DNA of 64,000 nt, taken from contig VLTN01000016.1 of the NCBI GenBank assembly GCA_008330645.1, positions 538,475 through 602,474 on the forward strand, read 5' to 3'. The DNA is from Cafeteria roenbergensis. Its lineage: Eukaryota; Sar; Bigyra; Bicosoecida; Cafeteriaceae. Position numbers and translations under genes: made by a program. Below are positions 961 through 58,335 of the stretch, piece after piece. Every line of letters starts with the position of its first letter. Positions within the stretch are counted from its first letter, which is position 1. The notes under the pieces are model-generated. The model saw only the letters and a list, made by a program, of their open reading frames with translations. It had not been told where the DNA came from and searched no databases.

Positions 961-3140
961 TCACTCCCGCCACGCCTCGCGAGCGCGCCCGCTCGCGGCA
1001 GCCGCCGCCTGCGGCGCCACCGCAGGAGCCGAGGACTCCTCGTCCGCCTGCGGCGCCACAAGCTCGATTGCCTCGCCTTCGTGGAGCTCGGTGCCGTGCT
1101 CGACGTTGGTGCGAGGGGCGCGCTTGCCTCCGCGCCGGCAGCAGCCCCCGCGGCTGCACAGCCACGCCGACAAGGCAAGCATGACGAACTCGAGGATCTC
1201 GACGATGGTCAGAGCGCTCATTCCGGCCCAGAGGCCGGTGTTTCCGCCGACCTCGCCGAGCATGCTCTCGAAGCTGTAGGCGCGCACCGTTGTCACCACC
1301 TGGTACTCGGTGGTGGGCGGGAAGACGCGCACACTCATCATGTTCTGGGCGAGGTACTCCGGGGTGATGGATGTGTCCTGCTTGGCGCTCCGCACCACGT
1401 CCAGAATCGTGCTGGCCGAGGCGACGCTTGGCCACAGCTGGCGTCCCGCCGTGGCCGTGTAGAGGGTCTCGAGGCACCGGTCAGGGCAGCTTGCCGAACA
1501 CCCCAGCTCGCCCGCTTGGAACCTTGAAAGCTGCGTGGCGATGCACGCCTTCTCCTCGCTCGAGCACACGTACAGCGACGGCCTCTCCTCCATGGTGGTG
1601 GGCCACGGCAGCAGCAGGCACTCGCAGACGTCGGCAACGCTCGCGTAGTAGCAGTCGCGCTCACAGGCGGTCTTCGCGTACCCCGCCGGGTCCGTCGCGC
1701 CGCTCTCGCTGTGCCATGCCTCGTTGCACGTGCCCCACGGCGGGAACAGGCGGGACCGGTCAACGCGCTCGAAGGCGATGTCCGAAGCAGAGCCGGGTCC
1801 CACTCCAAAGCCGGAGGTCGGGTTGGCCAGGACGCTGGGGTCGTGGATGATGACCCGGATGCCGGCCGACTCGGGGCCCTTGAACAGGGCCTCGACGGTC
1901 GAATTGCGGTTGTCGGGCGGGGCGCGGGCATCGCTTGCGCTCCCGGGCCCGGGGTCCTCCTGCACGCGTCTGGGAGCCAGGAGCCGCCGGGCGGGCTGGG
2001 AAGGCGAGGGCGTGCGAGTGGGTGACGCTCCGGCCGGCGACGATGCCTGAGGGCTCGAAGAGGCTGCGGCAGGTGGAGGGCTGCTTGATGCAGTTGCACT
2101 GGAGCTCGACGTCTGCGGCGACGCCTGCGCCGACGCCTGCGCCGACGTCTGCGGCGACGTCTGTGGGGACGTCTGCGGCGACGTCTGCGGCGAAGTCTGC
2201 GGCGACGTCTGCGCCGATCCGGAGGAGTCTGGCTCGGTGCCAGGGCCCTGGTCAGCTCCCGACGCCTGCCGCACCGAGGTCCGGGGGGAGTACCCCACGT
2301 ACTCGGCTTGCTCGATGTCGAGCACGAGGCGCAGGCCATAGTCCGGCCCGGTGCGAGCAGAGGTCAGCGGGTTTGGGCCGCTCGCATTGAACTCCTCGCC
2401 GTCGATGGTGAGCGCGCGCAAGCCGTGAAAGGTGTAACACGCGCCGAATTGCGCATCGAGGAGCACCGAAAAGTTGTCGGCAAAGCACTCCAGGCCAGCG
2501 AACTCGCAGCGCAGGATGAAGTTGTTCACCGGCTGCGTCATCAGCTCGAGGACGCTGTTGTTGAGAGTGGACAGCCCGTACTGAGCCACGCGCGACTGCT
2601 GGAACCCGTTTTCGTTGCATACCGTCACGGCAGGGAACGGAACGGGCGCGCGGCTCTCCCACTTGACCACGGTGGCAGTTGGATTTTGCAGGAAGTACTG
2701 CACCCGATCCGTCACGATGACCACGAGCGCGACAAGCGCGCCAAGCAGAAGCACGAGCCACAGCCACCTGCGGTCGTGGTTGGGGTGGTGTCTGGGGCGC
2801 GAGGGCTGCAGTGGGTGACGCTGCGCTACCCAACGCGCGCTCTCGGGACATTGCCGTGAAAGCCGGCAGCAACCGCTTGCAAACGCTCACCGCCGACAAG
2901 AGCGCTCCTTAGACAGGTAGAACACCTTTCCCACCCCGTGCGCCTGCGGGGCGCGGTAGGAAAGACAGCGCATGCCGGAGCAGGGGGCGAGCCAGAGGGT
3001 TCCGCGTCGGGAAGGGCTGGACGCATTGACCCGCCTGTTGTCGTGCTGGCAGTGACGAAGCGCAGCTCTCTCACGGTTACATTGTCCGAGAACTCCTGGA
3101 GCGGCTGGAAGCCTTCGGGCTGCCTGCTTTCCGACGACAT
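961..3140 (-). CDS. DEG/ENaC/ASIC-family cation channel subunit
   Basis: Two-TM, large-ectodomain cation channel of the degenerin/epithelial sodium channel family. Three exons: 3140-3075, 2943-2891, 2767-961; phases join exactly to 641 residues. The N-terminal gating motif appears only after splicing: FSDNVT from exon 1 joins AHGVGKVF from exon 2, matching the family's F...T.HG...IF block. TM1 (about residues 41-62) ends in TDRVQYF, followed by the conserved PFPAVTVCN at the start of the ectodomain. The ectodomain has many Cys and the GACYTFHG motif. The C-terminal pore segment has GGNTGLWAGMS then a long hydrophobic TM2 to about residue 577; the G-x-S selectivity filter is G-M-S (about 555-557). 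An insert around 225-250 is a Gln-Thr-Ser-Pro repeat. The cytoplasmic tail is about 64 residues with acidic stretches. Likely Na+-permeable; the gating stimulus is unknown. The open frame upstream of TM1 lacks an ATG, which supports the spliced model. Confidence 0.88.
2107..2213 (-). repeat. 12-bp in-frame minisatellite encoding QTSP/QASA repeats
   Basis: About nine imperfect 12-base units (plus-strand type GACGTCTGCGGC) inside the ectodomain coding region of the channel gene. They encode tandem Gln-Thr-Ser-Pro, degenerating to Gln-Ala-Ser-Ala. The period keeps the frame, so copy-number change would lengthen or shorten the extracellular loop without breaking the protein. Confidence 0.85.
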
Positions 3141-3769: not shown

Positions 3770-5761
3770 ATGGCTCGCTGCACGGCAGCGGTGCTCCTAG
3801 GGGCTGCGCTGCTGTCCGGTGGCGCGCTTGGCCGCATCCACGACTTGGAAATCGTGAACGATGGCCGGTTCGTGTTCGACCTGGAGACGTTTGGCTTCCA
3901 CGCCGGAGGCACGCTCAACCTCAAGATCTCCGACTTCAAGGTGAGGCCGGCAACGGGGCGCCCCGGGGAGCGATAGCTGCTGTGGGACGCAGGGAGGCGG
4001 CTCTTGCTGGGCTTCCGTGCAGCGGCTGCTCGTTGGTGGCCGTTCTCCGCGCGTTTCCGAAGCGTGCCTTGCCCCGCATGCACTGGCGCTGCTTGCGGGG
4101 CGCGAGATCGCGTCCTTCCCGTGTCCGGCCCGCCTTCTGCCTGCAGGTGGTAGCCCCCGCTGGGGCGGACACGTTTGCAGGCTTCGTCTTGCGCCAGGTG
4201 AGCCCCGAGGCAAATTGCTCCGCAGAGCGCTGGTAGCCGGCCCTGGTCGCTTGTGCCCCCCCTTGCGCACGCGGCACCCCAAATACCACTCACGGGAGTC
4301 TTCGTTTTCCCGGCTCGGTCCGTGCAGCGACGCCGAGGCCGCGCCCACGTGTCGTGGTGCTCGCTCCGATGTTGCGTCTCGCTCGCAGACCGAAAACAAG
4401 GTTGCGACGGAGAAGAACCTTGAGCTGCTGTGGAAAGACCACACGTGCCTTCTGTCCGACATCGTCCCTGGGCCCAACGATCGGATGATGAACATGTCTG
4501 AGGAATCTGGGAGCTTGAGTGCCCACATCACGGAGCCAGGCTTCTACTCCCTCATTTACACGCGGTGAGCCAGGCCGCCGCCGCCCCCGCCGCCCCCCCA
4601 CTCCCCCTCCCCCTTCCCCCCGCCACCCTCCTCTCGCGTTCCGCCCCGACGCCTGCGAGCCGCTGCTCCCGCAGGTGCGAGCCCTTCGCCGACGCAAAGT
4701 CCTCGTTCAAGGCGCACGCCGAGTTTGTGAACCCTGGGGGCAACTACCTGAGCGCCGGCGCCCAGGCCCTGCCCGGGATCCTCGGGGCGTCCTCGCTTGC
4801 CTTCGCCGTGGCGACGGGCGTCTGGGTGTGGCACCTCACCCGCCACGGCGAGAAGATTCATGCCGTCCACCACATGTTCACCGTCCTCGCCGCAACCAGG
4901 GCAGCCACGGCCGCGTCCGAGGCCATCCAGCTCGCAGCCATCGCGTCGGTCGGCCACCCCACGGGCTGGTCTGCTCTCTACTACGTGATTCTCTTCTGCA
5001 AGGGCCTCCTGTTCTTCGCAGCCATCCTCCTCATCGGGACCGGCTGGTCGCTCGTGAAGCCCTTCCTCAACAAGTGGGAGATCCGCGTTCTTGCCTTTGC
5101 GCTCCCCTGCCAAACTCTCGTCAACGTGGCCATTGTGGTCGTGGACGAGATGGCCCCGGGCTCCATCCCGTTCGAAGACTGGCTGTTCGTCCTGCACTTC
5201 TTCGACGCGGCCTGCAGCGTAGCCATCCTCCTCCCGGTGGCGTGGACGGTCCGGTCGCTCGCGACTGCCGCAGCCGCGGACGGCAAGGCCCGTGAGGCCC
5301 TGGACCGCCAGCAGCGCTTCCGCAACTTCTTCATCATCACCATGCTCTTCTTCTACACCACGCGCTTCGGAAACTACCTCTTCGACCTCACGATGCCCTA
5401 CTGGGCGCAGTGGGTCCCTGGGATGCTTGTGGAGCTGGTTACTCTCCTCTACTACCTCTGGGTCGGGTGGACCTTCGGACCCGTGGCCGAGAACCCGTAC
5501 ATGCGCGTGAGGGCTGCCAGTGGCGATGACGGGGAGTTCGGGCTGGACGACAGCGGAGTGGACACAGCCGCAGCAAGCGCGGGTGTCGATGGCTCTCACG
5601 CCGGCGACGACGGAGAGGTTGTGGCTGCCGCTGAGGAGGGTCGCAGGCCCAAGTCTGCGCCGGAGGCCGCTGCGCCTCCCGCTGCCCCGGCCCGTTCGCC
5701 TCCAGTTGCCTCGTCGCGTGCACAGGCCGCTTCCGACTCTGAGGACGCGCACAAGGACTGA
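3770..5761 (+). CDS. GPR107/GPR108-like (LU7TM/GOST) seven-transmembrane protein
   Basis: Lung-seven-transmembrane (GOST) family protein; relatives act in Golgi/endosomal trafficking. Four exons: 3770-3940, 4147-4197, 4389-4564, 4675-5761; phases 0, 0, 2 join cleanly to 494 residues. An N-terminal signal peptide (TAAVLLGAALLSGGALG) is followed by RIHDLEI, the usual start of the lumenal domain, then DTFGFxxGG-type sequence (here LETFGFHAGGTLNLKI). The lumenal domain ends in EPGFYSLIY, then a Cys (RCEP). Seven TM segments follow from about residue 145, with typical family blocks KIHAVHHMF, SALYYVILFCKGLLFF, FNKWEIR-like FLNKWEIRVL, and FIITMLFFYTTRF. The tail after TM7 is about 85 residues, acidic/alanine-rich and probably disordered. 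The start is a true ATG directly upstream of the signal peptide. Confidence 0.9.
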
Positions 5762-7709: not shown

Positions 7710-7780
7710 GCATCGATGGTGAAATGGTATCATATCTCGTTGCCATCGAGGTAGCCCGGGTTCGATTCCCGGTCGATGCA
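7710..7780 (+). tRNA. tRNA-Gly(GCC), copy 1
   Basis: 71-base gene without intron. Acceptor stem GCATCGA pairs fully with TCGATGC, discriminator A. D stem GTGA/TCAT, D loop with GG. Anticodon stem TCTCG/CGAGG with loop TTGCCAT, giving anticodon GCC. T arm CCGGG-TTCGATT-CCCGG. Internal A box (TGGTGAAATGG) and B box (GGTTCGATTCC) fit pol III. A CAA triplet sits just upstream and a T6 run starts five bases after the end. Confidence 0.97.
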
Positions 7781-7784
7781 ATCC

Positions 7785-7790
7785 TTTTTT
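7785..7790 (+). terminator. Pol III T6 terminator after tRNA copy 1
   Basis: Six consecutive T on the coding strand, preceded by ATCC directly after the tRNA 3' end. The same element recurs after each of the other six copies. It stands out because long T runs are rare in this GC-rich region. Confidence 0.85.
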
Positions 7791-8411
7791 CGTCGCGCAC
7801 CACACTCACCCGAGCGCGCCAACCACGGAGCAGCCAGCCACATCCTCGCCGGCTGTACCGACACCATCGCACCGCGATTCGTCCCCGCCACAGCGCCGGC
7901 ACGCGCGCGCTCGGAAGCGGGGCGGCATCGCGGCCGGGCGGAGGCGACCCCCAGGCAGTCACGGGGACGGCGGGGGCGGCCGCGAGGGTCGCTGTGGGCG
8001 GGCGACGGGGGGCGGGCGGGCATGTGGCGCGGGTGGGGGCGCGGGGCGGACGTCGATGCGGGCCCGGATGGAGGGGGGGGCGAGGGCGGCGTCGGTGACG
8101 ACCCCTTGCGTGTGCGGCGCAGAGGCCAGCGTGCGATGGCGCCGTGTCAAGAGGGGCGAGGGCGGCAGTCGGGGGGCGGGGGGGGGGGGGACGGGGGCGG
8201 GCGTGGGTGGTCGGTCGGAGTCGCGCATGGTTGGTCCGGGTGTGCGTGTTTCGTGGTGTGGTCGTCGGGGGTCGCGGTGGGCGGGCGGTGCGTGGGCGCG
8301 GGAGGGGTCGTGGGGCGGCGCTGGTGTCGATGTGGAGTGGTTGTGGTGTATTTTGGAGCGAGTCGCGTGTTGCATGATCTGATGACCATAATTTGTCTTT
8401 GAAGGCACCAA

Positions 8412-8482
8412 GCATCGATGGTGAAATGGTATCATATCTCGTTGCCATCGAGGTAGCCCGGGTTCGATTCCCGGTCGATGCA
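8412..8482 (+). tRNA. tRNA-Gly(GCC), copy 2
   Basis: Identical in sequence to copy 1, so all stems and boxes are intact. T6 terminator at 8487-8492. Confidence 0.97.
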
Positions 8483-9115
8483 ATCCTTTTTTCGTCGCGC
8501 ACCACACTCACCCGAGCGCGCCAACCACGGAGCAGCCAGCCACATCCTCGCCGGCTGTACCGACACCATCGCACCGCGATTCGTCCCCGCCACAGCGCCG
8601 GCACGCGCGCGCTCGGAAGCGGGGCGGCATCGCGGCCGGGCGGAGGCGACCCCCAGGCAGTCACGGGGACGGCGGGGGCGGCCGCGAGGGTCGCTGTGGG
8701 CGGGCGACGGGGGGCGGGCGGGCATGTGGCGCGGGTGGGGGCGCGGGGCGGACGTCGATGCGGGCCCGGATGGAGGGGGGGCGAGGGCGGCATCGGTGAC
8801 GACCCCTTGCGTGTGCGGCGCAGAGGCCAGCGTGCGATGGCGCCGTGTCAAGAGGGGCGAGGGCGGCAGTCGGGGGGCGGGGGGGACGAGGGGGACGGGG
8901 GCGGGCGTGGGTGGTCGGTCGGAGTCGCGCATGGTTGGTCCGGGTGTGCGTGTTTCGTGGTGTGGTCGTCGGGGGTCGCGGTGGGCGGGCGGTGCGTGGG
9001 CGCGGGAGGGGTCGTGGGGCGGCGTTGGTGTCGATGTGGAGCGGTTGTGGTGTATTTTGGAGCGAGTCGCGTGTTGCATGATCTGATGACCATAATTTGT
9101 CTTTGAAGGCACCAA

Positions 9116-9186
9116 GCATCGATGGTGAAATGGTATCATATCTCGTTGCCATCGAGGTAGCCCGGGTTCGATTCCCGGTCGATGCA
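9116..9186 (+). tRNA. tRNA-Gly(GCC), copy 3
   Basis: Identical to copy 1. T6 terminator at 9191-9196. Confidence 0.97.
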
Positions 9187-9821
9187 ATCCTTTTTTCGTC
9201 GCGCACCACACTCACCCGAGCGCGCCAACCACGGAGCAGCCAGCCACATCCTCGCCGGCTGTACCGACACCATCGCACCGCGATTCGTCCCCGCCACAGC
9301 GCCGGCACGCGCGCGCTCGGAAGCGGGGCGGCATCGCGGCCGGGCGGAGGCGACCCCCAGGCAGTCACGGGGACGGCGGGGGCGGCCGCGAGGGTCGCTG
9401 CGGGCGAGCGACGGGGGGCGGGCAGGGCATGTGGCGCGGGTGGGGGCGCGGGGCAGACGTCGATGCGAGCCCGGATGGAGGGGGGGGCGAGGGCGGCGTC
9501 GGTGACGACCCCTTGCGTGTGCGGCGCAGAGGCCAGCGTGCGATGGCGCCGTGTCAAGAGGGGCGAGGGCGGCAGTCGGGGGGCGGGGGGGACGGGGGGC
9601 AAGGCGGCGGGCGTGGGTGGTCGGTCGGAGTCGCGCATGGTTGGTCCGGGTGTGCGTGTTTCGTGGTGTGGTCGTCGGGGGTCGCGGTGGGCGGGCGGTG
9701 CGTGGGCGCGGGAGGGGTCGTGGGGCGGCGCTGGTGTCGATGTGGAGCGGTTGTGGTGTATTTTGGAGCGAGTCGCGTGTTGCATGATCTGATGACCATA
9801 ACTTGTCTTTGAAGGCACCAA

Positions 9822-9892
9822 GCATCGATGGTGAAATGGTATCATATCTCGTTGCCATCGAGGTAGCCCGGGTTCGATTCCCGGTCGATGCA
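9822..9892 (+). tRNA. tRNA-Gly(GCC), copy 4
   Basis: Identical to copy 1. T6 terminator at 9897-9902. The downstream flank differs from the other copies by a two-base GC expansion (CGCGCGCACC). Confidence 0.97.
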
Positions 9893-10529
9893 ATCCTTTT
9901 TTCGTCGCGCGCACCACACTCACCCGAGCGCGCCAACCACGGAGCAGCCAGCCACATCCTCGCCGGCTGTACCGACACCATCGCACCGCGATTCGTCCCC
10001 GCCACAGCGCCGGCACGCGCGCGCTCGGAAGCGGGGCGGCATCGCGGCCGGGCGGAGGCGACCCCCAGGCAGTCACAGGGACGGCGGGGGCGGCCGCGAG
10101 GGTCGCTGTGGGCGGGCGACGGGGGGCGGGCGGGCATGTGGCGCGGGTGGGGGCGCGGGGCGGACGTCGATGCGGGCCCGGATGGAGGGGGGGGCGAGGG
10201 CGGCGTCGGTGACGACCCCTTGCGTGTGCGGCGCAGAGGCCAGCGTGCGATGGCGCCGTGTCAAGAGGGGCGAGGGCGGCAGTCGGGGGGCGGGGGGGAC
10301 GAGGGGGACGGGGGACGGGCGTGGGTGGTCGGTCGGAGTCGCGCATGGTTGGTCCGGGTGTGCGTGTTTCGTGGTGTGGTCGTCGGGGGTCGCGGTGGGC
10401 GGGCGGTGCGTGGGCGCGGGAGGGGTCGTGGGGCGGCGCTGGTGTCGATGTGGAGCGGTTGTGGTGTATTTTGGAGCGAGTCGCGTGTTGCATGATCTGA
10501 TGACCATAATTTGTCTTTGAAGGCACCAA

Positions 10530-10600
10530 GCATCGATGGTGAAATGGTATCATATCTCGTTGCCATCGAGGTAGCCCGGGTTCGATTCCCGGTCGATGCA
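10530..10600 (+). tRNA. tRNA-Gly(GCC), copy 5
   Basis: Identical to copy 1. T6 terminator at 10605-10610. Confidence 0.97.
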
Positions 10601-11235
10601 ATCCTTTTTTCGTCGCGCACCACACTCACCCGAGCGCGCCAACCACGGAGCAGCCAGCCACATCCTCGCCGGCTGTACCGACACCATCGCACCGCGATTC
10701 GTCCCCGCCACAGCGCCGGCACGCGCGCGCTCGGAAGCGGGGCGGCATCGCGGCCGGGCGGAGGCGACCCCCAGGCAGTCACGGGGACGGCGGGGGCGGC
10801 CGCGAGGGTCGCTGTGGGCGGGAGACGGGGGGCGGGCGGGCATGTGGCGCGGGTGGGGGCGCGGGGCGGACGTCGATGCGGGCCCGGATGGAGGGGGGGG
10901 CGAGGGCGGCGTCGGTGACGACCCCTTGCGTGTGCGGCGCAGAGGCCAGCGTGCGATGGCGCCGTGTCAAGAGGGGCGAGGGCGGCAGTCGGGGGGCGGG
11001 GGGGACGGAGGGGACGGGGGACGGGCGTGGGTGGTCGGTCGGAGTCGCGCATGGTGGGTCCGGGTGTGCGTGTTTCGTGGTGTGGTCGTCGGGGGTCGCG
11101 GTGGGCGGGCGGTGCGTGGGCGCGGGAGGGGTCGTGGGGCGGCGCTGGTGTCGATGTGGAGTGGTTGTGGTGTATTTTGGAGCGAGTCGCGTGTTGCATG
11201 ATCTGATGACCATAACTTGTCTTTGAAGGCACCAA

Positions 11236-11306
11236 GCATCGATGGTGAAATGGTATCATATCTCGTTGCCATCGAGGTAGCCCGGGTTCGATTCCCGGTC
11301 GATGCA
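11236..11306 (+). tRNA. tRNA-Gly(GCC), copy 6
   Basis: Identical to copy 1. T6 terminator at 11311-11316. Confidence 0.97.
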
Positions 11307-11941
11307 ATCCTTTTTTCGTCGCGCACCACACTCACCCGAGCGCGCCAACCACGGAGCAGCCAGCCACATCCTCGCCGGCTGTACCGACACCATCGCACCG
11401 CGATTCGTCCCCGCCACAGCGCCGGCACGCGCGCGCTCGGAAGCGGGGCGGCATTGCGGCCGGGCGGAGGCGACCCCCAGGCAGTCACGGGGACGGCGGG
11501 GGCGGCCGCGAGGGTCGCTGTGGGCGGGCGACGGGGGGCGGGCGGGCATGTGGCGCGGGTGGGGGCGCGGGGCGGACGTCGATGCGGGCCCGGATGGAGG
11601 GGGGGGCGAGGGCGGCATCGGTGACGACCCCTTGCGTGTGCGGCGCAGAGGCCAGCGTGCGATGGCGCCGTGTCAAGAGGGGCGAGGGCGGCAGTCGGGG
11701 GGCGGGGGGGACGGGGGGGACGGGGGACGGGCGTGGGTGGTCGGTCGGAGTCGCGCACGGTTGGTCCGGGTGTGCGTGTTTCGTGGTGTGGTCGTCGGGG
11801 GTCGCGGTGGGCGGGCGGTGCGTGGGCGCGGGAGGGGTCGTGGGGCGGCGCTGGTGTCGATGTGGAGCGGTTGTGGTGTATTTTGGAGCGAGTCGCGTGT
11901 TGCATGATCTGATGACCATAACTTGTCTTTGAAGGCACCAA

Positions 11942-12012
11942 GCATCGATGGTGAAATGGTATCATATCTCGTTGCCATCGAGGTAGCCCGGGTTCGATTC
12001 CCGGTCGATGCA
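11942..12012 (+). tRNA. tRNA-Gly(GCC), copy 7 (last)
   Basis: Identical to copy 1. T6 terminator at 12017-12022. Array homology stops at about 12073, 61 bases after this gene. Confidence 0.97.
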
Positions 12013-27120: not shown

Positions 27121-30100
27121 TCAGTCCTCCTCGTCGAAGGACTCGTCCTCGTCGCTGTCGTCAGCAACAGAGAAGGCTCCCTCGCTCCCGCTGTCCTCAT
27201 CCACAAAGTCATCCTCCTCAACATACTTGGGCTTGGCCGCAGCCGCTCTGCGCCGCCCCGCCGCCCGAGGGGCGGGCGCGGCAGCCGCAGGCGAGTCTGC
27301 CTCGCTGTCGCTGTCGTCCTCCACCACGCGGCGAGCGGCTGCCTTGGTGGCAGCGGGGCGCTTGCGCTTGGGGGCGGGCGAGGCACGCAGCGGCGACTCG
27401 GGCGCTGGGCTGGGGGACGGAGAGGCGGCGCGCTCGTCGCTCGAACTGCGCTTCTTGGCGGCGCCTCGCTTGGCCGCCGCGGGCTTCTTGGCCGCCGCGG
27501 GCTTCTTGGCGGCGCCTCGCTTGGCCGCCGCGGGCTTCTTGGCCGCCGCGGGCTTCTTGGCCGCCGCGGGCTTCTTGGCCGCCGCTGCCTTCTTGGCGCG
27601 GGCAGGAGCGACAAAGGCATCGCTGTCGTCGTCGTCGTCGTCGCTCACCTGGCCATCGGCGTCGTCGTCGGACACGTCGGACACATCGGCGGCTCGGCGA
27701 GTGGCGGCCGCGGCCCGCCTCTGGGATGCCGTCTGCTTGCTTGGCGGCGTCACTGCCATGCGCTGGGCCACGCGAGCGGCGAGCGACGCGACGCCACCGT
27801 CGTCGTCGCTGTCGCTCAGGTCCAGGGCCGCAAACTCGTCCTCGTCCTCGTCCTTGGCGGCGAGGGGCTCAGGCTCCGACTCGGGCACAGCGGCCTGTTG
27901 CGCTGCAGCTGCGGCGCCCGCCCCCGCGCCACCACGGCCACCACGGCCGCGGCGGGCCGCGGCGCGCGCGCGAGGCGCCGGCGCGGGCTCCGCTTCGCTG
28001 TCGCTGTCCGTCTCCTCCGCGTCGCTCTCGTCGCTCATCGCGCGAGCAGCGGCCTTGCGCTTGGGCGCTGCTGCAGCGCGGCGCCCGCCTCGTGCTGGAG
28101 CAGCCGCCCTTGAGCTGCTGCTGCTGCTGCTGCTGCTGCCTGCGGCACTGGCCGCCGCCCGCCGGCTTGGGACGGCAGCTCTGCCGCCAGAATAGCCGCC
28201 GTCAAAGTCGGAGTCGGACTCTCCCTCGCCCCAGGCCTCCTCGTCCTCCTTGTCGGCCGCAGCCTTGGCCGCAGCCGCGTCCCCGGCGGCCGTGCCGATG
28301 AGGGCCTTGGCAGTTTGCGCCCGGCGCTTTGCCGCTCCTGCAGCGGCGCTGACAGCGGCCTTGGCCCTGCCCTTGCCGCGGCCCTTGCCGCCCTGCGCCC
28401 GGCGGCGCGCGCGCTCCTCCACCTCCACGAGCGCCGCCCTCTCCGCGTCGTCGGCGTCCAGACCCTCCTCCAGCGCGTCCAGGTCGGACAGCCACAGGCC
28501 GCCCGCCGTCGTGGCCTCGAGCCTCGCCACCTCCTCCTCCTTGCTCGCCCGCTCGGCGCGCAGCTCGACCACCTTCTCGGCCGAGAGCGAGAGCAGCGAC
28601 ATCGTCAGAAGGTAGTTGAACCCCTTGCTGACGGTCGCGGCGTCGGCAGTGGCCGGGTCGATTTCGTCGCAGTCGCCGCCGCGGCTGCTGCCGTCAGCCT
28701 CGCCGTCCACCAGGGCGTCGGCGTCGGCGCTCACCTCGTCCTCGTCCTCGTCCTCGTCGCCGTCGCCCCCGGCGCCGGCCGAGCCGCTGCCCGCGCCCTT
28801 GCCCCCGGCGCCGGCCGCCTTGCCCGACCTGCGCGGGCGCAGCCCCATCTCCAGCATGTCAGCCACGATCGCGGCGCGCGAGCGGCGGGACACCACGAGC
28901 TTCCCGTCGAGGACCGCCTCGATGAAGCGCTCCTTCGCCAGGAGCAGCCCCAGCTCCGCGCGCAGGCGGCGCATCATGTGCGCCCGCCGCTTCTCGTACA
29001 TGGCCAGGCGCAGCGGCACGTAGCGCTCCACCACCCCCACGGCGGAGCTGAACCTCCTGATCCTGCCGTCCTCGTCGAAGAGGTGCATGTTGGTGATGGA
29101 CATGGTGGAGTCGAGGCGGAACTTCTTGCGGGTCATGGCGTCACCGCCAGCGACGACGCGACGGCCCTCTGGCGTGAGGGTGATGGTGAAGGAGACGGTG
29201 GTGTCGGTGTGGTTCTCGCGGAACTCCTTCACAAGCGCGGTGGAGGCAGCGGCCGCGGTGGCCGACTTGGCCGAGGCCACGCTCTCGTTGTCCGAGTCGC
29301 CGTCGGCGTCGTCCGCGTCCTTGGCCGCCTTGCGCTTCTTCCGCGCCGCGGCGGCCTTCTGCTTGGCGGCGGCGGCCCCCCTCGCGGCGGAGGCGCCGCC
29401 CTTGCCCTTGGAAGCGGCCTTTTCGCGCTCCTTCTCGGCCTGCGGGGTGAGGGACTCGAGGAAGATCTTGTAGTCCTGCGTCCAGCGGCGGACGGGCAGC
29501 TCCGTGACGGTCAGGGTCGAGCCGTCCGCGCTGACGTCGTAGCGGCCCTTGAGGATGAACTGCTTGCCCTCCTTGGCCGAGACGACCTCCCCCTCGAAGC
29601 CGCGGTACCAGGGCTTCATGGGGGCGGGGACGTTGCCGAGGAGGATGTCGCGGACCGCGGCGATGATGTCGCGCGGGGAGAAGGAAGGCACGAAGGAGGA
29701 CCACCCGGTGCCGATGCCGTCGGCGCCGTTGACCAGCGCGAGGGGGATGACGGGGTAGTAGAACTCGGGCTCGATCTTCTGGCCGTCGTCGGTGAGAGAC
29801 TTGAGGAGGGCGTCGTCGTCGGCGGGGAAGAGGAGGCGGGCGAGGGCGTGGAGGCGCGTGAAGACGTAACGGGGGCTCGCAGCGTCCTTGCCCCCCATGA
29901 TGCGGGTGCCGAACTGGCCCGAGGGCACGAGGGCGTTGATGTTGTTGGAGCCCACAAAGTCCTGGGCCATGCCCACGATGGTGGCTGCCAGCGCGGCCTC
30001 GCCGTGGTGGTAGGCGGAGTGCTCCGCGACGTAGCCGGCGAGCTGCGCAACCTTGATGTCCTTCTTGAGGCCACGCTTGAAGCAGGCGAACAGAACCTTG

Positions 30101-33100
30101 CGCTGGGAGGGCTTGAGGCCGTCCACGAAGGAGGGGATTGACCGCTCGTTGTCCGCCCGGCTGAAGAGGATGAGCTCCCGATCGACGAAGGTGCCCACCG
30201 GCATGCGCTCCACTCCGTAGTCGACAAACGTGCCCGGCTTCCAGCGCTGGAGCCAGCTCTTGCGGTCGTCTGCGCGCTTCTTGGAGAAGGCGAGGTCGAT
30301 CAGGTCCGGGTCGGTCCGGGCGAAGGTGGCCTTGGCCCTGCCGCCGCTGGCCTTGGCGGCGGCCTTGGCCTTGGCAGCAGCGCGAGCGGCGGCCTTGGCC
30401 GCCTTGGCGGCGGCCTTGGCCTTGGCAGCGCCCGACGCGGTGCTGCCCGGCGAGGATCCCAGCGCGGCGCCGAGGACGTCATCGTCGTCGTCGTCATCGT
30501 CGTCGTCGACATCGTCGTCGTCAATGTCCTCCTCGTCATCGTCCTCCTCGTCGTCGCTTGCCTCCCCGCCCCTGCGGTCGGCCTTTTCGTCGTACTCGAA
30601 GTTGATGACGTGCGTGTCCAGGTCCGCGAAGTACTCCTTGGCCTCCTTGGCGGAGGACGTACCGAGACCCTTGTAGTACCGGGCTGCCCAGCCCCTGCCC
30701 TCGTTGTTGGCCTCTCGCCACGTCTTGTACTCGGGCAGCGTGAAGAAGCTGAGGGAGCGAGGCCCGCGCGTGACCTTGACGATTGGCGTGATGAACTGCT
30801 GCAGGAAGCCCTTGACCCGGAGGAGCGAAGGCCAGAAGTGGTGGAGGAAGTTGATGATGAGCCCCTTGATGTGGCTCCCGTCGTGGTCCTGATCCGCCAT
30901 GATCATCAAGTGGCCGTACCGGAGCCCGCTGGCGGACTCGTACGTCTTGCCGAACTGCAGGCCCATGATCTTGACGACGTTTTGGATCTCGGCGTTGGCC
31001 AGAATCTGCTTGTGCGAGGCTTCGCGAACGTTGAGGAGCTTACCCCGGAGCGGGAACACGCCGTAGTTGTCGCGGCCGACCACGGAGAGGCCAGAGATGG
31101 CGAGCGCCTTGGCGGAGTCACCCTCAGTGAGGATGAGGGTGGTCTGCTCCGCGCGGGCGGTGCCAGCGTTGTTGGCGTCGTCGAGCTTGGGGATGCCGGT
31201 GATGGTCCTCGTCTTGGTGCCGCCCTTGCGCTTCAGCTCTGCGCTCTGCTTGAACTTGGCCCACGACAGCACGCGGTCCACGACGCCGCTCTTGGCGACG
31301 ACCTGCTTGACAAACTTGTCCGGCAGCTCGCACACTGAGCCGAAGGACTTTGCCGTGGTGATGAGAGTGTCCTTGGTCTGGCTGTCGAAGGCAGGGTTTT
31401 CCACCAAGCAGTTGACGAAGACCGTCATGTGGTTGCGGACGTGGTGGGCCTTGAGGGGGACGCCCTTGTTCTTGCGCGCGGCCGACTTGCACACGGCCTC
31501 GGCGATCTGGTCCGACACCATCTTGACATGGCTGCCGCCGCGGGTGGTGCAAATGGCGTTGACAAAGCTCACCTGCGTGAACTGCCCGTCGGACACCGCC
31601 ACGGCCACCTCCCAGCGGTCGCTGACCCGGCAGAAGAGGCGGGGCAGCACCGTCCCCGGCCCGCTGCCGGCAGCGGCATCGTCGTCGCCCCCGGCCCGCT
31701 TGCCCTTGGCTCCCTTCTTGCCCTTGCCGCGGCGCTTGGCTCCGCCGTCGTCAGAGTCAAAGTCGGACTCGCCGTCGTCGTCGCTGTAGCCGCCATCCTC
31801 GTCCTCGTCGTCGTCCGACACCGCCCCTCCCCTCGCTGACGCAGCAGCCGCGGACGAGGAGGACGACGACGGCTTGTGTGTGTGGATGACGGGCCGCGAA
31901 ACGACGCCTGCGGCCTCCTCCGCCTCCCTGTCCGCCTCGGTGCGGTAGAGCGCCACGTAGGACTCGAAGTCGCCCACGGGCAGCTTGTCGCCGTTGAGGT
32001 AGACGCTGACAGTGCGGTCCGAGATGCCAGCCATGTCGTAGACGCGCTTGGTGAAGAGGGCGACGATGTCGGCGTCGAGAGACTCCATGCCGAACCGGGC
32101 GAGGTCCGGTCGGAAGGTGATGCGAGTGAAATCGCGGTCAGACTTGCGCGTCTTGGAGATGACCGGGGTGCCCTTGGCCGTCATGTTGTCGGAGAACTCC
32201 TGGCGGTAGGCGAGGCCGCGCTCGGTGTCGCAGGTCTCAACCACGAAGAGCGTGGAGAAGATGTTGGCCAGCTTGGCACCGTAGCCGTTGCGGCCTCCGG
32301 TGACCTTCTTCTCGCCGTCGTCGTAGTTGGACGAGGTGAGGAGGTGGCCGAAGATGAGCTCGGGCACGTACACGCCGTGCTCCGCATGCTCCACCACGGG
32401 GATGCCCTTGCCGTCGTTGAACACGCTGATTTCGCCAGCAACGGGGTCGATCGTGACCCTGATGGCCCGCATGGAGGCATCACGCTGCTTGTTGTCGGCC
32501 GCGTTGACGAGGAGCTCGTCGAAGATCTTGTAAAGGCCGGGCACGTACGTGACCTCGCGCTGCACGATGCGTCCGCAAGTCTCGTCCCAAACCCACATTG
32601 GCTGGGCGTTCTTCTGCATAGAGCCGACTGCGCGAGGGAAGCATACAGCAGCACAGGGGCGCGCGCGGAAGGGGCTCTTGCGAGGGATTGGGGGCTGGAG
32701 GGAGCGAGCGTTTGCCCAGCTGGTTGCAGCTGCGAACGTCGCAAACGGCAGCGAACGGCGCTCCCGGCGAGGGCGCCCCTATGCCCCATGCCGCGGCGGC
32801 TGGTGCCCGTCGGTGCATCCCTTGACTCACCGTACGTGTCGGGGCGCAGCAGAATGTGTTCTAGCTGGGACTTTTTCTGGTAGATTTGCTCGATGGTCTT
32901 GCCCTTCTTGGCCTTGGGCTTGGCCTTGGGCTTGGGGGCAGGCGACGGGCTGTCGGCAGCCGCAGCTGCCGCCGCGGCGGCCTTGGCGGAGACCTTCTTC
33001 GTTGCGTTGACCCTGGCCTTCCCAAGCGGCGCGGCCTTGCCCTTGGCGGGGGCGCGGGACTTCGCCACCGGCTTGGCCTCGGGCGACATATCAAACTCAG

Positions 33101-38389: not shown

Positions 38390-40546
38390 TCAGTACTCGC
38401 CGTGCTGGTTCGCTTCGCCCCACGCGTGCGCCATCTCGTCGCGGGCCAGCTTGCCGGCAGTGTCGATACGCTGGGGGCTGTATGGCTCCCTGTAGCCACA
38501 GTCGCCGCGATCGCCCGGCCCGCCGCTGCCGTCGGAGCTCCCGAAGCCGAGGAAGCACTCGCAATTGCCTGTAACTCGGTTACACAGCCCGCGCGCGCTG
38601 CATTCGAGCACTTCAGTCGTCCCCTTGGTCACCTCCGTCGCCTTGAGCAGTGCTGGCATCACCAGGTCGCCGTTGCTTATGGAGTCGCTCTCAACGACTT
38701 CAATGGGAGGCAAATCGCCGTTCTCCGTTTGGAAAGAGAACGTGATCGTTGTGCCCGCGCTCGAGCAAGCCTGGGATGCCGTTGGCCCGAAGCTGACGGC
38801 AAGCGTCCCTATGGCGTCCAGCTGCTCAAGAGCGGCCTTGACCTCTGCCGCGGACGCTGTGGCGGCTATGGGAGAAGTGGTTTCGTCCCGGAACCGCAGG
38901 GAGAATGCTGGGGCACCAGAAACGTGCGAGCACACCAGGGACTGAACTTCGTCGAACTGATCCGACGTGGTGGGGTCGTCTCCTGTAGGGCAGGCCCGCA
39001 GTGAGCAGTCAAAGCCCTCCCATCCATCGAAGCAGATGCACCCCTGGCTGCTGCGAAAGTCCCATGTTGCGGGACTGTTGCGGTCTTGACCGTACGTGAA
39101 CGGCGTGCTCACCCCGTTGGTACGCGCCAGCTGTGCGAGCCCTTCCATGCTGTGGCACGTGCCGTGCCCAGAACAAGTGCGGCCGTCGGCAGTGGTCCCC
39201 GGACACGCGAGCTTCTCGCAGCCTTCGCCAGTGAAACCGGCTTGACAGTTGCACTTGCCGGTTTCCCGGTCGCAGATGCCTCGGTTGGAGCACTCGGCCT
39301 GCGCGTGGGCCGCGTTCGCAGTGTAGGCAAGGTCCATCCAAGCCCTTCCCGTAGGGCAGAGACGGTCCGCGCAGTCGCCGCCGGTCCATCCCCGATCGCA
39401 AGTGCACCCGTACTCGGGGTGGCCGGAACACTTGCCGTGGCCAGAGCACTCGATGGACTTGCCGGGGCAGGACGTGATGGGCATCGCCGCAAAGCCGCAG
39501 TCTGGGCGGCTGCCTGAAGCGCCCCTGCCGTCGCTGGACGCGAAGCCGGTGTAGCACTGGCAAGCTCCGCTCCCTTCGTCGCAGTGCCCCCGACCTGAGC
39601 ACGGCAGGGCCTCCTTTGTCCCCTTCACGGACACGATGGCACTCCCTCCATGACGTGTGAGCGACTCGCCGTCAACCGCGGTGTGGATCGACGCAGCTGC
39701 CGACGCTGGGAGCTCGGCGCCACTCCCGTCGAGCAGCAGCAGCCGTGGCAGGTCGCCTGGGTCGCCTTGGAACGTGAACTGCACGACGTTGTCGCTTGGT
39801 CCGTTAACAGACGCGCGGAAGCAGAAGCTCGTGGTCGAGCCCAGTGCGCTCAGGAACTTGACCTGGACGTTGTCGGTAGTCGGGAGCGCGTCGAGAGCTT
39901 TCTGCACTTCAGCCTCGGTGGCCGAGGCTCCAAACGCCCTCGTGGTGGCTTTTCGAAACCGCAAGACGAACTTCTGGTCGGATGTGCTGTCCATGTCGCA
40001 ACGGAAGAGCTGCACCTCGTCCACCTGGCCCTGCGTCATGGGGTCGTCCCCGATGGGGCACACACGCTGCTGGCACGCAAACCCCGCAAAGCCGCTGTCG
40101 CATTCGCAACCGTGGATTTTCTCTGCGTCCCAGCGCCCAGTGTACGCAAACGTGGCGAGGCCAGCGTCCCGGAACTTGTTCAAGGTGGTCATGGACCTGC
40201 ATCGCCCGCGACCGCCGCAGTCGTCGGGGCACTTCATCCGCTGGCATCCGGTGCCCTCGAATGGCTCGTCGCACTCGCAGACGCCGGACTCCTCTATGCA
40301 AATGCCCCTGTCGCTGCAAGTCGCCCTGGCGTGCGCTGTGTCGTCAGCCGTTGCGATGTCGTTCCAGGACTCCGCTGCTGGGCACAGCCTGATGGAGCAG
40401 TCGCCACCGCCCCATTTCGAGAAGCACTGGCACCTGTTCACGCCCACGCACCTGCCGTGGCCGTTGCAGAAGCGCGGGCAATGAGCCTGCACACCGGGCG
40501 CGACCGACGCCAAGCCCAGCAGGAGCGCTGCCGAGATCGCCAGCAT
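38390..40546 (-). CDS. Secreted EGF-repeat protein with duplicated architecture
   Basis: 718 residues with a strong signal peptide (LAISAALLLGLASVAPGVQA) directly after the ATG at 40546; the frame is open upstream, but this start is decided by the signal. The mature protein is two tandem copies of one architecture: three or four EGF-like units, then a CPxGDDPxTxxQxDEVQ signature, a ~110-residue beta-rich domain (F.LRFR..TT ... A.EV..AL..L), then one EGF-like unit with an acidic/Gly loop (GFxSSDG). EGF signatures are of the tenascin/teneurin style CSxRGICDxxTGxCxC. No TM or obvious GPI signal at the C terminus, so it is probably secreted or held by partners. Similar proteins occur in many protists and function is usually unassigned; adhesion or matrix roles are inferred. 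Confidence 0.85.
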   Translation of the reverse strand: MLAISAALLLGLASVAPGVQAHCPRFCNGHGRCVGVNRCQCFSKWGGGDCSIRLCPAAESWNDIATADDTAHARATCSDRGICIEESGVCECDEPFEGTGCQRMKCPDDCGGRGRCRSMTTLNKFRDAGLATFAYTGRWDAEKIHGCECDSGFAGFACQQRVCPIGDDPMTQGQVDEVQLFRCDMDSTSDQKFVLRFRKATTRAFGASATEAEVQKALDALPTTDNVQVKFLSALGSTTSFCFRASVNGPSDNVVQFTFQGDPGDLPRLLLLDGSGAELPASAAASIHTAVDGESLTRHGGSAIVSVKGTKEALPCSGRGHCDEGSGACQCYTGFASSDGRGASGSRPDCGFAAMPITSCPGKSIECSGHGKCSGHPEYGCTCDRGWTGGDCADRLCPTGRAWMDLAYTANAAHAQAECSNRGICDRETGKCNCQAGFTGEGCEKLACPGTTADGRTCSGHGTCHSMEGLAQLARTNGVSTPFTYGQDRNSPATWDFRSSQGCICFDGWEGFDCSLRACPTGDDPTTSDQFDEVQSLVCSHVSGAPAFSLRFRDETTSPIAATASAAEVKAALEQLDAIGTLAVSFGPTASQACSSAGTTITFSFQTENGDLPPIEVVESDSISNGDLVMPALLKATEVTKGTTEVLECSARGLCNRVTGNCECFLGFGSSDGSGGPGDRGDCGYREPYSPQRIDTAGKLARDEMAHAWGEANQHGEY

Positions 40547-41468
40547 CGTCGCAAGCCTGCCCCCCCGGGCTGCCTGGCTACTTGGGCGGGCGGACGCGAG
40601 AATCCCCAGGGGCTGCGCCAACGGAGCCAGGAGGGTCGTGTGCGCAGGTCGGGTGGCGGTTTCAACGCCGAATTCTGCCTTGCGAGCTGCTCTGCTTGGC
40701 GTTGCGCCTCCAGCCGGCGAACTGTCCGCGCGGCCCGCTGCGCCAGGCTGACTGCTTGCCGCGTTGCCCCGGCCCGGCCTTGGCTCGCAAAGGTGCCTGG
40801 CACGCAGCTCTGTGCAGCGTGCTGCTGCACTCGCAGCCGCCTGCGCGGCTTCCCCCGGGCAACGCTCGCCCACCGCAGCGGCCCAACTCTGGTTGCGGCA
40901 GAGCCCGAGCCCGGCAAGCGAATTGAAGGCCCACGATCGCGCAGAGGCGACGATCCGGGCCATGGCGCCCATCGGTTGCGATCCCCCAGCCGCGCACACA
41001 CCGTTCCCCCGCCACGCGCGCTCGCCGCCGCTTACAGCTTGCATGAGCTTTGGGGGAGCAGACAGCTCGTCCCAAGCTGCCGGTGAGTTTGCCAGCAGAG
41101 GCCCGCAAGCTTGCAGCGCTTGGAGTTCCTTGAACTGCCGCAGCCGCTGGAGCTCCACGCGCGCGCGCCGCTCTCGAGCCAACGCGCGGCGCCGCCCCCA
41201 CTCACGCCGCCCCCCCCAGGGGGCAGGCGGCTGGTTCGGGGGGAGCCGCTGGCGGCCTGCGCTGCAGCCGCCGGAAGGCGCTTGAACAGCGTCGCCTTCT
41301 CGACCTGTCGGCGCGAACGCAAGCCCGCCTCGTGCCCAGCAAAGCGGCTGTGCGTGGCAGCGCGATGCGCATGCCACCTTGCTCGACCTGTGCGCCGCTG
41401 TGGCTCGCTGCGGGTGCGTTTGCGCAGGGCTTGGCTCTGGCAGCCGGTTCGGCGCTTCCGCGCTTGGA
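40547..41468. other. Divergent intergenic region
   Basis: Separates the EGF-repeat gene (-) from the RGG-protein gene (+). The EGF frame remains open upstream to about 41578 and includes a helical-looking stretch (around 41050-41190, ERRARVELQRLRQFKELQ), which might be an unrecognised minus-strand exon. I could not connect it to a start and splice sites, so it is left uncalled. Confidence 0.4.
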
Positions 41469-44400
41469 ATGAGCGCCCTTGGGGGAGGAAAGGGCACATC
41501 ATGGGGAGACGAAGCGGATGACGACTTCGCACCTTCGTCGAGCCGTGGGCCCGTGACTTCTTCGGGTGCCACTGCCACGGGCGCCGCCGTGGCCCAGCGA
41601 CCGGCCCTCCTGACCGCTCGGCCCGCAATGGTGGCCGCTCGAAGCGACGCTGGGGCGATCAGCGACGCCGAGCGCCGCCGTCGCGCAGCCCAGCAGGAGG
41701 CCGACGCGCTGCGTACGGTGCAGAGAGAGCAGGAGCTCCGGCTGGCCGAGGACCGCGCCAGGGCCAGCGCCAGCGGGACAGCCGGAGGCTCCGGCAGCTA
41801 TGCGGTCGGCTCCGAGCTCATCAGGACCACGCTGCCAAAGAGCAGCGGCAGGGGCGGCAGGGGTGGCAGGGGCGGCCGCGGAGGGCGGGGCGGCCGGGGC
41901 GGCCTCAGCCTCTCGGGGGCCGGTCGCGGCGGGGCCTCCAGTGGCTCCCCGGCTGGGGCTGCCGTCGCCCGCCCGTCAGCGCTCGGCGTGTCGTCGTCCT
42001 GGCAGGATGACGACGGACCCTCTTCTTCCGGTTTCACCGCAACTGTCCGCATTCCACTTCGGGGCAACAGGCTCGTGGCTGCCCTCGAGGCAGCCGGCTC
42101 GCCAGCAGGCGCCACGGCCGCCGGCGCCTCTCCAGCCCAGGCGCGCCGGCCGACCGTGACCCTCCGCCAGCCTGGCGCCTCTCCCGCTGTCGTCGCGACC
42201 GCTAAGCCGGCCCCCGCCCCCGAGGCCAAGCCGGCCACCTCCAACGTCTGGCTGGAGCGCTCCAAGCAGCGCGACGCCGCCGGAACGCAGCAGGCCTCCC
42301 GCCAGCAGCCGCGCTCCACTCTTCCCCGCCCGGGAGAGGCACCCCCCGCCGGATACGACGACAGCGACGCCTACGGGGACACCGCGCACGGGGGGGGGCA
42401 GTGGCGAGGCCGCAGCGGCAGCTACGGTGGCGGTCACAGCGGCGGCGGCGACGCGCGCTTCAGCGGCGACGCCCGCTACTCGGCCGGGCACGGCGCCTCT
42501 GGCGACACGGCGGCGAGCACGGAGCACCACGGCGACGGCTTCCACCGCCCGGCGCCGTCCGGCCACAGCCACCAGCGACAGCAGTACCACGGCGGCAGCC
42601 ACGGCGGCGGGTTCGAGGGCGAATCCCGTCGGCGGGGCCTGTCCGAGGCCAGCGCTGGAGACATGCACGGTGGCGCTCCCGGCAGCGTCAACGGCAGCGA
42701 GGCCGGCGGCAGCTGGCGCGGCGGCGCAGGCAGCATCGGCGGCACGTCCGGCGCCACCGCCCCTGCCGGGTCCGCCAGCCATCTCACCATCCCAGACGCC
42801 GGAGCAATGGCAGCAGCCCGCGCCGCCGCCCGCAAGCGCAGGGCCGACGAGCGCGCCACCCGCGGCCCGCGGACGGCAGGAATCCTCTTCATCCGCCTGG
42901 CCGACGGCCGCATCGTGGACAAGGAGAAGCCCGTCCCCCCTCTGCCCGTGGCGCCTGCGCCCGCTGCCCACGCTCCCGCCGCTTCCGCCACGGGCGCTTC
43001 AGGCTCGGGCTCGGGCTCGGGCTCGAGCGCAGGCGCTGGAGGCTCCCAGCGCAAGCAGCGCCGCCCGTCCGGCGCATCCTCCGGAGCTCATCACGGGGTC
43101 GGAGCCGGAGCCCGCCGCCCGAGCAACGCGAGCCTCTCGAGCGCCGGAGGTCACTCGACGCGCGGCGCGGCCCAGCAAAAGCACGGCCATGGCTCTGCCA
43201 GCGCAAGCCCCGCCAGGCGCGGGACCGCGGCCGCTGTGCCCGCGGCCGTCGCCGCGCCCGCTCCCGAGCCAGCCAAGCCCGCCCGCCCGGCCTGGGCGGG
43301 AGGTCCCCCTCCCGGCATCGCTGCGGCAGTGAGCCAGGGGAACGGCGGCCCTGGGCCTGCGGCCGGCGCACCCGCCACCGGCGCTGCGGCCTCCACCTCC
43401 ACCCGGGGCGCAGCTGCGCGCAAGCAGGGGCCGCGCTCCCAGGGCCCCTCCTCCACCCGCGGTGCTGGCGCAGCTGCCAACGGCACCGCGCCCAGCAGCG
43501 CGGCCGCCGCCGGCCGCCAAGGCGCCTCCGTCCCCGCCCCGGCACCCAGCCGCAGCCCCGGCACCCGTGGCCGCCACCAGCCCTCCGCCGCAACCGCCGG
43601 CCACGAAGCCTCCGGTCTCCCCACCAGCGCCGGCCTCCCCGCCCCCGTCGTGCTATCCCCCGCCGGGGCCGCCGCCTCCCCCTCCCCCGCCGGGATGCCT
43701 CCCCCCGTCCACGCCGAAGCCTCCTCTGCCCTCGCACTGGGGACCACGGAACCCCACAGCTTCCTTCACGACGACCACCACCACCACCATCACCAGCACC
43801 AGCACCACCAGCACCACCAGCACCACCGGCACCACCGGCACCAGCACCAAGACCACATCTCCCACCATCGCCACGCCATGGACGACGACGACGACGACGT
43901 CGCCGCCGCGGCCGTGCGTGAGGCGACGGAGGGGTCTGCCCTCTACGCAGCGAGGGAGGCGCAGGGAGTCGCCCCCTACCTCCCAGCGCCAGGGCCACAG
44001 GAGCACGTCCCGAGCATCGGCACCGGCGTCATCCCCCTCATCATCGGCGCCGGCTCCAGCGGTGTGGACTGGTCGGCGCCCGGCTCTTCCACCGACGTCA
44101 GCTGGGGCGGCGGCTCCGGTGTTGGCTGGACTGCCCCGGGCGAGGCTGACCCGCCTGGTGGCCCCGACGCGGGCGCCGCCGTGGCTGCCGCCACCATTGC
44201 TGCCATCACAGGCCCTGGAGGCCTGGCCATCGGCACACCGCCCACCGCCTCCTCCGTCGAGCGCCAGCAGCGCCAGCAGCGCCAGCAGCGGGCCCATGCC
44301 GAGTTGCCCCCCCCTGCCCCACCCGCTGCTGCCCCGGCGCGCACTCTCTGGGTGCCCCAGGCCTCAGCAGCGCCTCCCGCAGCCGAAGCGGCACACCCTC

Positions 44401-58000: not shown

Positions 58001-58335
58001 GCGAGCCGCGGTCGCACGGCCCACAGGTCCCGCCGCAGTCGGTGTCGGTCTCAAAGTGATCTTCCCCGGGCGACCCCTGCCGGATTCCATCAGCGCAGCT
58101 GGCTTGGGTGCAGTTTCCGCGCTTGCAGACGCCGCTCGCGCAAGACGACCCCGACCTGCACACCGAGCCAGCCGAGCTGAGCGAAGAGCAAGCCACCGGC
58201 CCGTTCACAGGGCAAGGGTCGACCGAATCTGTCCAGTCCAGCACGCCGCACGAGCTCGAGAGCACTGCATTGTCCGTCCTGAGCAGCTGCGCCTCCAGCT
58301 CAAGTCCAGCCAGCTGAGCTTCGAGCTCTTCACGA
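52014..58335 (-). CDS. Giant surface protein, C-terminal part: coiled coil, Cys-rich repeats, TIG-like domain, multi-TM
   Basis: Continuous minus frame of about 2,100 residues ending at a stop at 52014. From the N-terminal side: end of a coiled coil (EELEAQLAGLELEAQLL), then roughly 850 residues of Cys-rich repeats of the pattern NGxETDxDCGGxCxxC ... CxxxxDCxSGxC, at least fifteen copies. A TIG/IPT-like domain (VSPASGASGVGSSVRLSGGNF) follows near residue 900-960, then beta-rich sequence. The last ~700 residues hold about eight or nine TM helices (for example AHTVVLLSTVGLALLQG, AVSLAAAEAAFALAFGFLIV, MLLVALDS ... KQVLVLTLLLA) and a basic cytosolic tail. This is a type of very large protist surface receptor/adhesin. 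No start codon belongs here: the frame is the continuation of the gene to its right, linked by a one-base shift at about 58336. Confidence 0.78.

Follow-up and report, generated by a model that had tools for sequence, protein, structure and literature searches.

An intron-bearing DEG/ENaC-family channel gene and its three relatives in the genome of the heterotrophic stramenopile Cafeteria roenbergensis

Our analysis makes it highly probable that the gene described here is an intact nuclear gene of a heterotrophic stramenopile, maintained by selection and encoding a subunit of a cation channel of the DEG/ENaC type whose stimulus is more likely of a non-ASIC kind. DEG/ENaC sodium channels are best known from animals, including from nerves and kidneys. 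This reading best explains what can be taken from the sequence itself, namely the gene structure, the full family anatomy of the product, the presence of four family members in the genome and the signature of purifying selection.

The gene lies on the minus strand of the window (the whole 64,000-nucleotide stretch analyzed, on the contig that we call C16), with its ATG at 3140 and its stop codon at 963..961, exactly where the initial annotation had placed it. Three exons, all of them open, are separated by two GT-AG introns and encode a product of 641 aa. Its features are listed below by position in the window, together with their counterparts in the closest paralog, on contig C1, where these help to fix the boundaries.

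3075..3140, minus strand: exon 1, residues 1-22, ending EFSDNVT; the C1 paralog has the identical GFQPLQEFSDNVT followed by GTGAGG
2944..3074, minus strand: intron 1, 131 nt, GTGAGA..GCAG, phase 0; the C1 counterpart, of 100 nt, is equal in place and phase
2891..2943, minus strand: exon 2, AHGVGKVFYLSKERSCR, which bears the HG motif; the C1 counterpart is a 53-nt exon with AHGVRKVMYLSKERSCR
2935..2940, minus strand: HG (His-Gly) motif, residues 24-25, before TM1; present in all four family members of the genome
2768..2890, minus strand: intron 2, 123 nt, GTGAGC..GCAG, phase 2 (99 nt if exon 3 began at 2791)
961..2767, minus strand: exon 3, with TM1, the ectodomain, TM2, the cytoplasmic tail and the stop codon
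2704..2766, minus strand: TM1, about residues 41-61, from hydropathy and alignments, with approximate ends
2614..2637, minus strand: FPAVTVCN, from residue 84, after TM1; FPAVTVC occurs in all four family members
1918..2265, minus strand: Ser/Pro/Ala/Gln/Thr-rich insert of about 116 residues in the ectodomain, containing 9.2 tandem copies of a 12-nt unit (2107-2217)
1171..1248, minus strand: TM2, about residues 547-572, from hydropathy and alignments, with approximate ends
1216..1224, minus strand: GxS selectivity-filter triplet, GMS, residues 555-557

Exon 3 could instead start at 2791, from another in-frame acceptor that lies 24 nt further upstream and would give a 649-aa form. We dropped that model and preferred the acceptor at 2767 because it matches the acceptor of the C1 paralog, removes a gap relative to ASIC1 before TM1 and slightly raises the score against the Pfam ASC profile (PF00858; 235 bits, E 2.4e-69, for the 641-aa model and 231 bits for the 649-aa model, with a curated cut-off of 23.6). 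Both introns share codon position and phase with those of the C1 paralog, while their lengths differ (131 vs 100 nt for intron 1 and 123 vs 160 nt for intron 2). Three exon stretches of the two genes align without gaps, at DNA identities of 82% for the common part of exon 1, 74% for exon 2 and 76% for the opening 300 nt of exon 3; the introns, in gapped alignments, are 67% and 70% identical over alignable bases, with scores that are close to zero yet higher than those of 200 shuffles.

The rest of the window, which has a GC content of 70.7%, holds several other features. A GOST seven-transmembrane domain adjoins the channel gene (4676-5758, plus strand; PF06814, 59.5 bits), and seven tRNA-Gly (GCC) genes form a tandem array on the plus strand at 7710-12012, spaced by about 702-708 bases. 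On the minus strand, a single frame of 1885 codons at 27124-32778 contains DNA gyrase/topoisomerase II domains from the ATPase through subunit A, an open frame at 38393-41797 has EGF_2 and teneurin-like EGF matches, and a 2130-residue open frame at 52017-58406 weakly matches a TRP ion channel profile (PF06011, 30.7 bits against a cut-off of 28.5). Three similar GC-rich repeat pairs, about 1.4 kb apart, lie at 60052-63092, an arrangement that suggests tandem duplication.

The predicted protein carries every hallmark that had been read from the DNA at the outset: the HG motif, RVQYF (here as DRVQYF, after TM1), FPAVTVCN, a Cys-rich ectodomain, a GxS filter and TM2, all within a sequence whose ASC match is far better than chance would give. 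The hallmarks that one paper gives for DEG/ENaC channels, namely HG, a Trp at TM1, 11-14 cysteines in the ectodomain and GxS (PMC9822975), all occur in the product. The Trp at the start of TM1 is residue 43, in RRWLWLV, and is invariant in our alignment, being common to ASIC1 and the other members; all four members have 14 cysteines in the span from FPAVT to the filter, and all four have a Glu at the place of ASIC1 E451 and another at that of D454. A search of PDB sequences with the 649-aa model (E <= 0.1) returned 31 distinct sequences, the best being ASIC1 (E 7.3e-39). Twenty-six of these are named as ASIC, ENaC/SCNN1, amiloride-sensitive or FMRFamide-gated channels, and the others are three entries for Broad-range thermal receptor 1, one for Pickpocket 26 and one for PDPNaC1. 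On its sequence, from which the fold is assigned, the product is thus a DEG/ENaC subunit. The predicted structure, made from a four-row alignment, was too poor for structure comparison (mean pLDDT 34.5, pTM 0.21).

We also ran the PF00858 profile against the assembly to which the window belongs (36,303,456 bases in 167 contigs). Its nine matched stretches amount to four loci: the window gene and three further members on contigs C1, C33 and C23, which score 223.6, 191.1 and 152.8 bits. The four contigs range in size from 415 kb to 1.53 Mb. In the C33 member, HG sits in an upstream exon before one 216-nt GT-AG intron, whose splice sites were chosen manually, and in the C23 member HG and TM1 lie within one open frame. 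The filter triplets are GMS in C16 and C1, GAS in C23 and GIS in C33. The GMS of the window gene had been read correctly, but it is no notable deviation: the hallmark is GxS, and we give the remark little weight because x varies (Met, Met, Ala, Ile) among the four members of this one genome.

With insert and tail excluded, the proteins of the window gene and the C1 paralog share 76.8% of their residues across 466 codons. Over the same codons pS is 0.652, pN 0.147 and pN/pS 0.226, with dS at about 1.5; the ratio comes from simple counting, and synonymous sites are near saturation in this GC-rich genome, although the direction of the ratio is clear. By this measure the window gene is under purifying selection, and a pseudogene can be rejected on the same ratio and on the openness of all exons. 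In a control panel for the profile search, one of 14 genomes, that of Thermotoga maritima, came out above the ASC cut-off. We know of no bacterial members of the DEG/ENaC family.

The existence of such a channel in a protist is already known, having been in print since 2023, when DEG/ENaC homologs were reported from Cafeteria roenbergensis and from the filasterean-related Tunicaraptor (PMC10507113). The initial annotation had presented a DEG/ENaC channel in a microbial eukaryote as a finding; what stands is a real gene with two introns, while the claim to novelty falls to earlier publications (PMC10507113, PMC10770216). The homologs of the 2023 report belong to the same family as the window gene, which is probably one of them, and the passages of that report on which we draw do not give gene structure, filter variants or the repeat insert. 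Its methods also name Symbiodinium sp. KB8 as a candidate alveolate source, and it cites a 2021 paper on the dinoflagellate channelome (PMC10507113). The heterokont and filasterean exceptions are repeated elsewhere (PMC9822975). For choanoflagellates the cited texts conflict: one reports finding no DEG/ENaC genes (PMC10507113) and the other reports homologs (PMC10770216).

How the family came to be in Cafeteria admits two serious answers. It may already have been present in an ancestor that stramenopiles share with animals, with most of the lineages between them losing it and Cafeteria keeping an old branch, or it may have been transferred in ancient times from an animal or an animal relative to an ancestor of Cafeteria, with later duplication and intron gain. 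Our own tree is unrooted and has 10 rows and a 228-column core, comprising the four genome members and six PDB chains on long branches (chicken and human ASIC1, ASIC5, and ENaC alpha, delta and gamma); it does not include ASIC2, ENaC beta, FaNaC, pickpocket or further chains, nor any cnidarian, choanoflagellate or other protist sequences. The four Cafeteria genes form one cluster (SH-aLRT 91.5, bootstrap 88), separate from that of the three ENaC chains (99.5/99), and the split of the Cafeteria genes from ASIC1 and ASIC5 has support of 76.9/74 in this small unrooted tree. Within this set of ten sequences, the Cafeteria genes come out as one deep group, a result whose scope stops short of nesting within animals. 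Outside the close pair of C16 and C1, its members are only 26-32% identical over the core.

Inheritance is the answer that we tentatively put first, at somewhat less than an even chance, on account of the choanoflagellate homologs in one of the two reports (PMC10770216). It is consistent with the separation of the four genes from the ENaC chains and with the depth of the divergence among them, which, the close pair aside, are little closer to one another than ASIC is to ENaC (24-27%), as well as with the reported occurrence of the family in Cafeteria and Tunicaraptor (PMC10507113) and, by the second report, in choanoflagellates too. It is weakened by the small set of animal chains, the 228 columns and the long branches of our tree, by the report of no choanoflagellate genes, whose authors name loss and transfer both as possible (PMC10507113), and by the published tree, which puts the Cafeteria channels beside a set of cnidarian ones, sister to the whole remainder of clade B (PMC10507113).

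That same placement beside cnidarian channels speaks for transfer, as does the patchy distribution of the family, and the single group formed by the four genes in our tree would fit a single entry. However, with a dS of about 1.5 in the close pair and far greater divergence among the other members, any transfer must be old, and choanoflagellate homologs (PMC10770216) would fill part of the gap that a transfer would have bridged. We regard transfer as a real possibility that ranks second to inheritance.

The question of what opens the channel bears on the ectodomain, where the window gene has its repeat insert. The C1 paralog has an insert at the matching place, built from an 18-nt repeat in 13.1 copies, and the repeat units differ, being SPQT (12 nt) in the window gene and SPGAAS (18 nt) in C1. 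In both genes of this close pair the insert is a Ser/Pro-rich repeat of more than 100 residues. Different units at one shared place indicate turnover of the repeat at a conserved location. ASIC1 has no such insert, and its acid-pocket residues D238/E239 fall in the interval between aligned blocks that contains the inserts of these two genes.

We looked up the proton-sensing and gating residues named in two papers (PMC10507113, PMC10148893) by alignment to parts of chicken ASIC1; residues are given below in the order C16, C1, C23, C33. The place of H73 (chicken H74) holds T, T, S and V, with a His in none of the four, and that of Y72 holds N, N, F and W. At the place of K211 (chicken K212) the residues are R, R, S and K, so that the window gene lacks the Lys, and at that of W288 they are W, W, F and W. 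No member has an Asp at the places of D346 (T, E, S, V) or D350 (R, K, A, K), where the alignment around 346-350 is uncertain. All four have Arg at the place of D408, the place of E417 reads Q, Q, A and E, and that of the upper-gate residue D433 reads E, E, T and D. Part of the proton-sensing set is thus kept or nearly so, given the Arg of the window gene and C1 and the Lys of C33 at the K211 place.

A proton-gated channel of the ASIC type seems improbable to us on this evidence. ASIC1 is the top PDB match, three of the four members have Trp at the W288 place and three have Arg or Lys at the K212 place, and proton-gated family members without H73 and K211 do exist (PMC10507113). Against these points stand the missing His in all four, the absence of Asp at the D346 and D350 places in any of them (with one Glu, at D346 in C1, and an uncertain local alignment), the Arg at the D408 place throughout, the N, N, F and W at that of Y72, and the position of ASIC1 D238/E239 between the blocks where the inserts sit. 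Judged by its residues, the window gene most likely encodes a cation channel gated otherwise than in the ASIC way. Because the proton-sensing residues are missing and the repeat sits in the loop of the acid-pocket residues, a mechanical stimulus, a ligand or no stimulus at all (a leak) is more likely than protons of the ASIC type. One could go further and propose that the Cafeteria genes represent a branch of the family older than animals, descended from the ancestor of stramenopiles and animals and keeping an original state that did not sense acid. In the close pair, on this view, a rapidly evolving repeat would have taken the place of the acid-pocket loop and would serve as a tether, or as a sensor of mechanical stimuli or of prey; this combined proposal is an unlikely one.

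One could cite the wealth of the family in animals and the top PDB match to ASIC1 in favor of an assembly contaminated with animal DNA, but this is next to impossible given four loci on four contigs of such size, intron positions shared with the C1 paralog, and a high third-position GC (0.83 and 0.89 for two insert-free parts of exon 3) that is also seen in the window's topoisomerase II and GOST frames. The initial annotation had argued against contamination from the introns, and the argument gains from the four loci and from the shared positions of those introns; among the neighbors in the window are genes for topoisomerase II, GOST and amino-acid transporters.

Other sources and hosts were considered separately. 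Scans with two short peptide patterns gave at least 80 pattern matches in viral contigs and 19 in genome contigs scanned for a prokaryotic source, none of which was confirmed by tblastn; these are weak negatives, and a viral or prokaryotic source is left without tblastn support in them. RuBisCO large chain and light-harvesting families had no matches in the genome, by an exon-wise search that can miss genes and in an assembly from which a plastid genome may be absent, and a photosynthetic host (haptophyte or green alga) is unsupported by this result. Cafeteria strain BVI has been described with 36,327,047 bp in 170 contigs at 70.1% GC, and three other strains with 34.0-35.3 Mb in 218-396 contigs at 70.5% GC (PMC6972860). 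The species is named Cafeteria burkhardae in a later paper (PMC8547959).

From what is known of the family, we infer the channel activity, selectivity and stimulus of the window gene and can present a rough proposal for how its product would work. Three subunits would assemble in the plasma membrane, and the ectodomain would sense an outside stimulus, mechanical or a ligand (or there would be none, in the case of a leak) rather than protons as in ASICs, and would open a pore lined by TM2. GMS and the Glu at the ASIC1 E451 place would select small monovalent cations, the HG loop would shape the inner pore, and sodium from seawater would enter and depolarize the cell.

Among channels of solved structure, ASIC1 (PDB 9e4a, 6ave) offers the closest comparison. 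The window gene is 28-29% identical to it over the core and shares HG, TM1, FPAVT, the Cys-rich ectodomain, GxS and TM2, but it lacks the H73/H74 His and the Asp residues of the thumb acid pocket, has GMS for GAS and Glu for D454, and carries the long repeat insert. ASIC5 (PDB 9mky, 9mkz) heads the PDB matches of both C33 and C23, while the four members are 23-28% identical to it across the core. The ENaC subunits (PDB 6wth, 9blr) belong to the same family, with alpha, delta and gamma 21-26% identical to the four members over the core, but they group by themselves, apart from the Cafeteria genes.

In summary, genomic DNA, through its introns, paralogs and marks of selection, confirms that a set of DEG/ENaC genes is kept in a eukaryote that is not an animal. 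The origin of the family thereby becomes testable in a culturable protist, and the four natural variants (GMS, GMS, GIS and GAS filters, with and without a long repeat insert) could be used to probe what stimulus the earliest channels of the family responded to.
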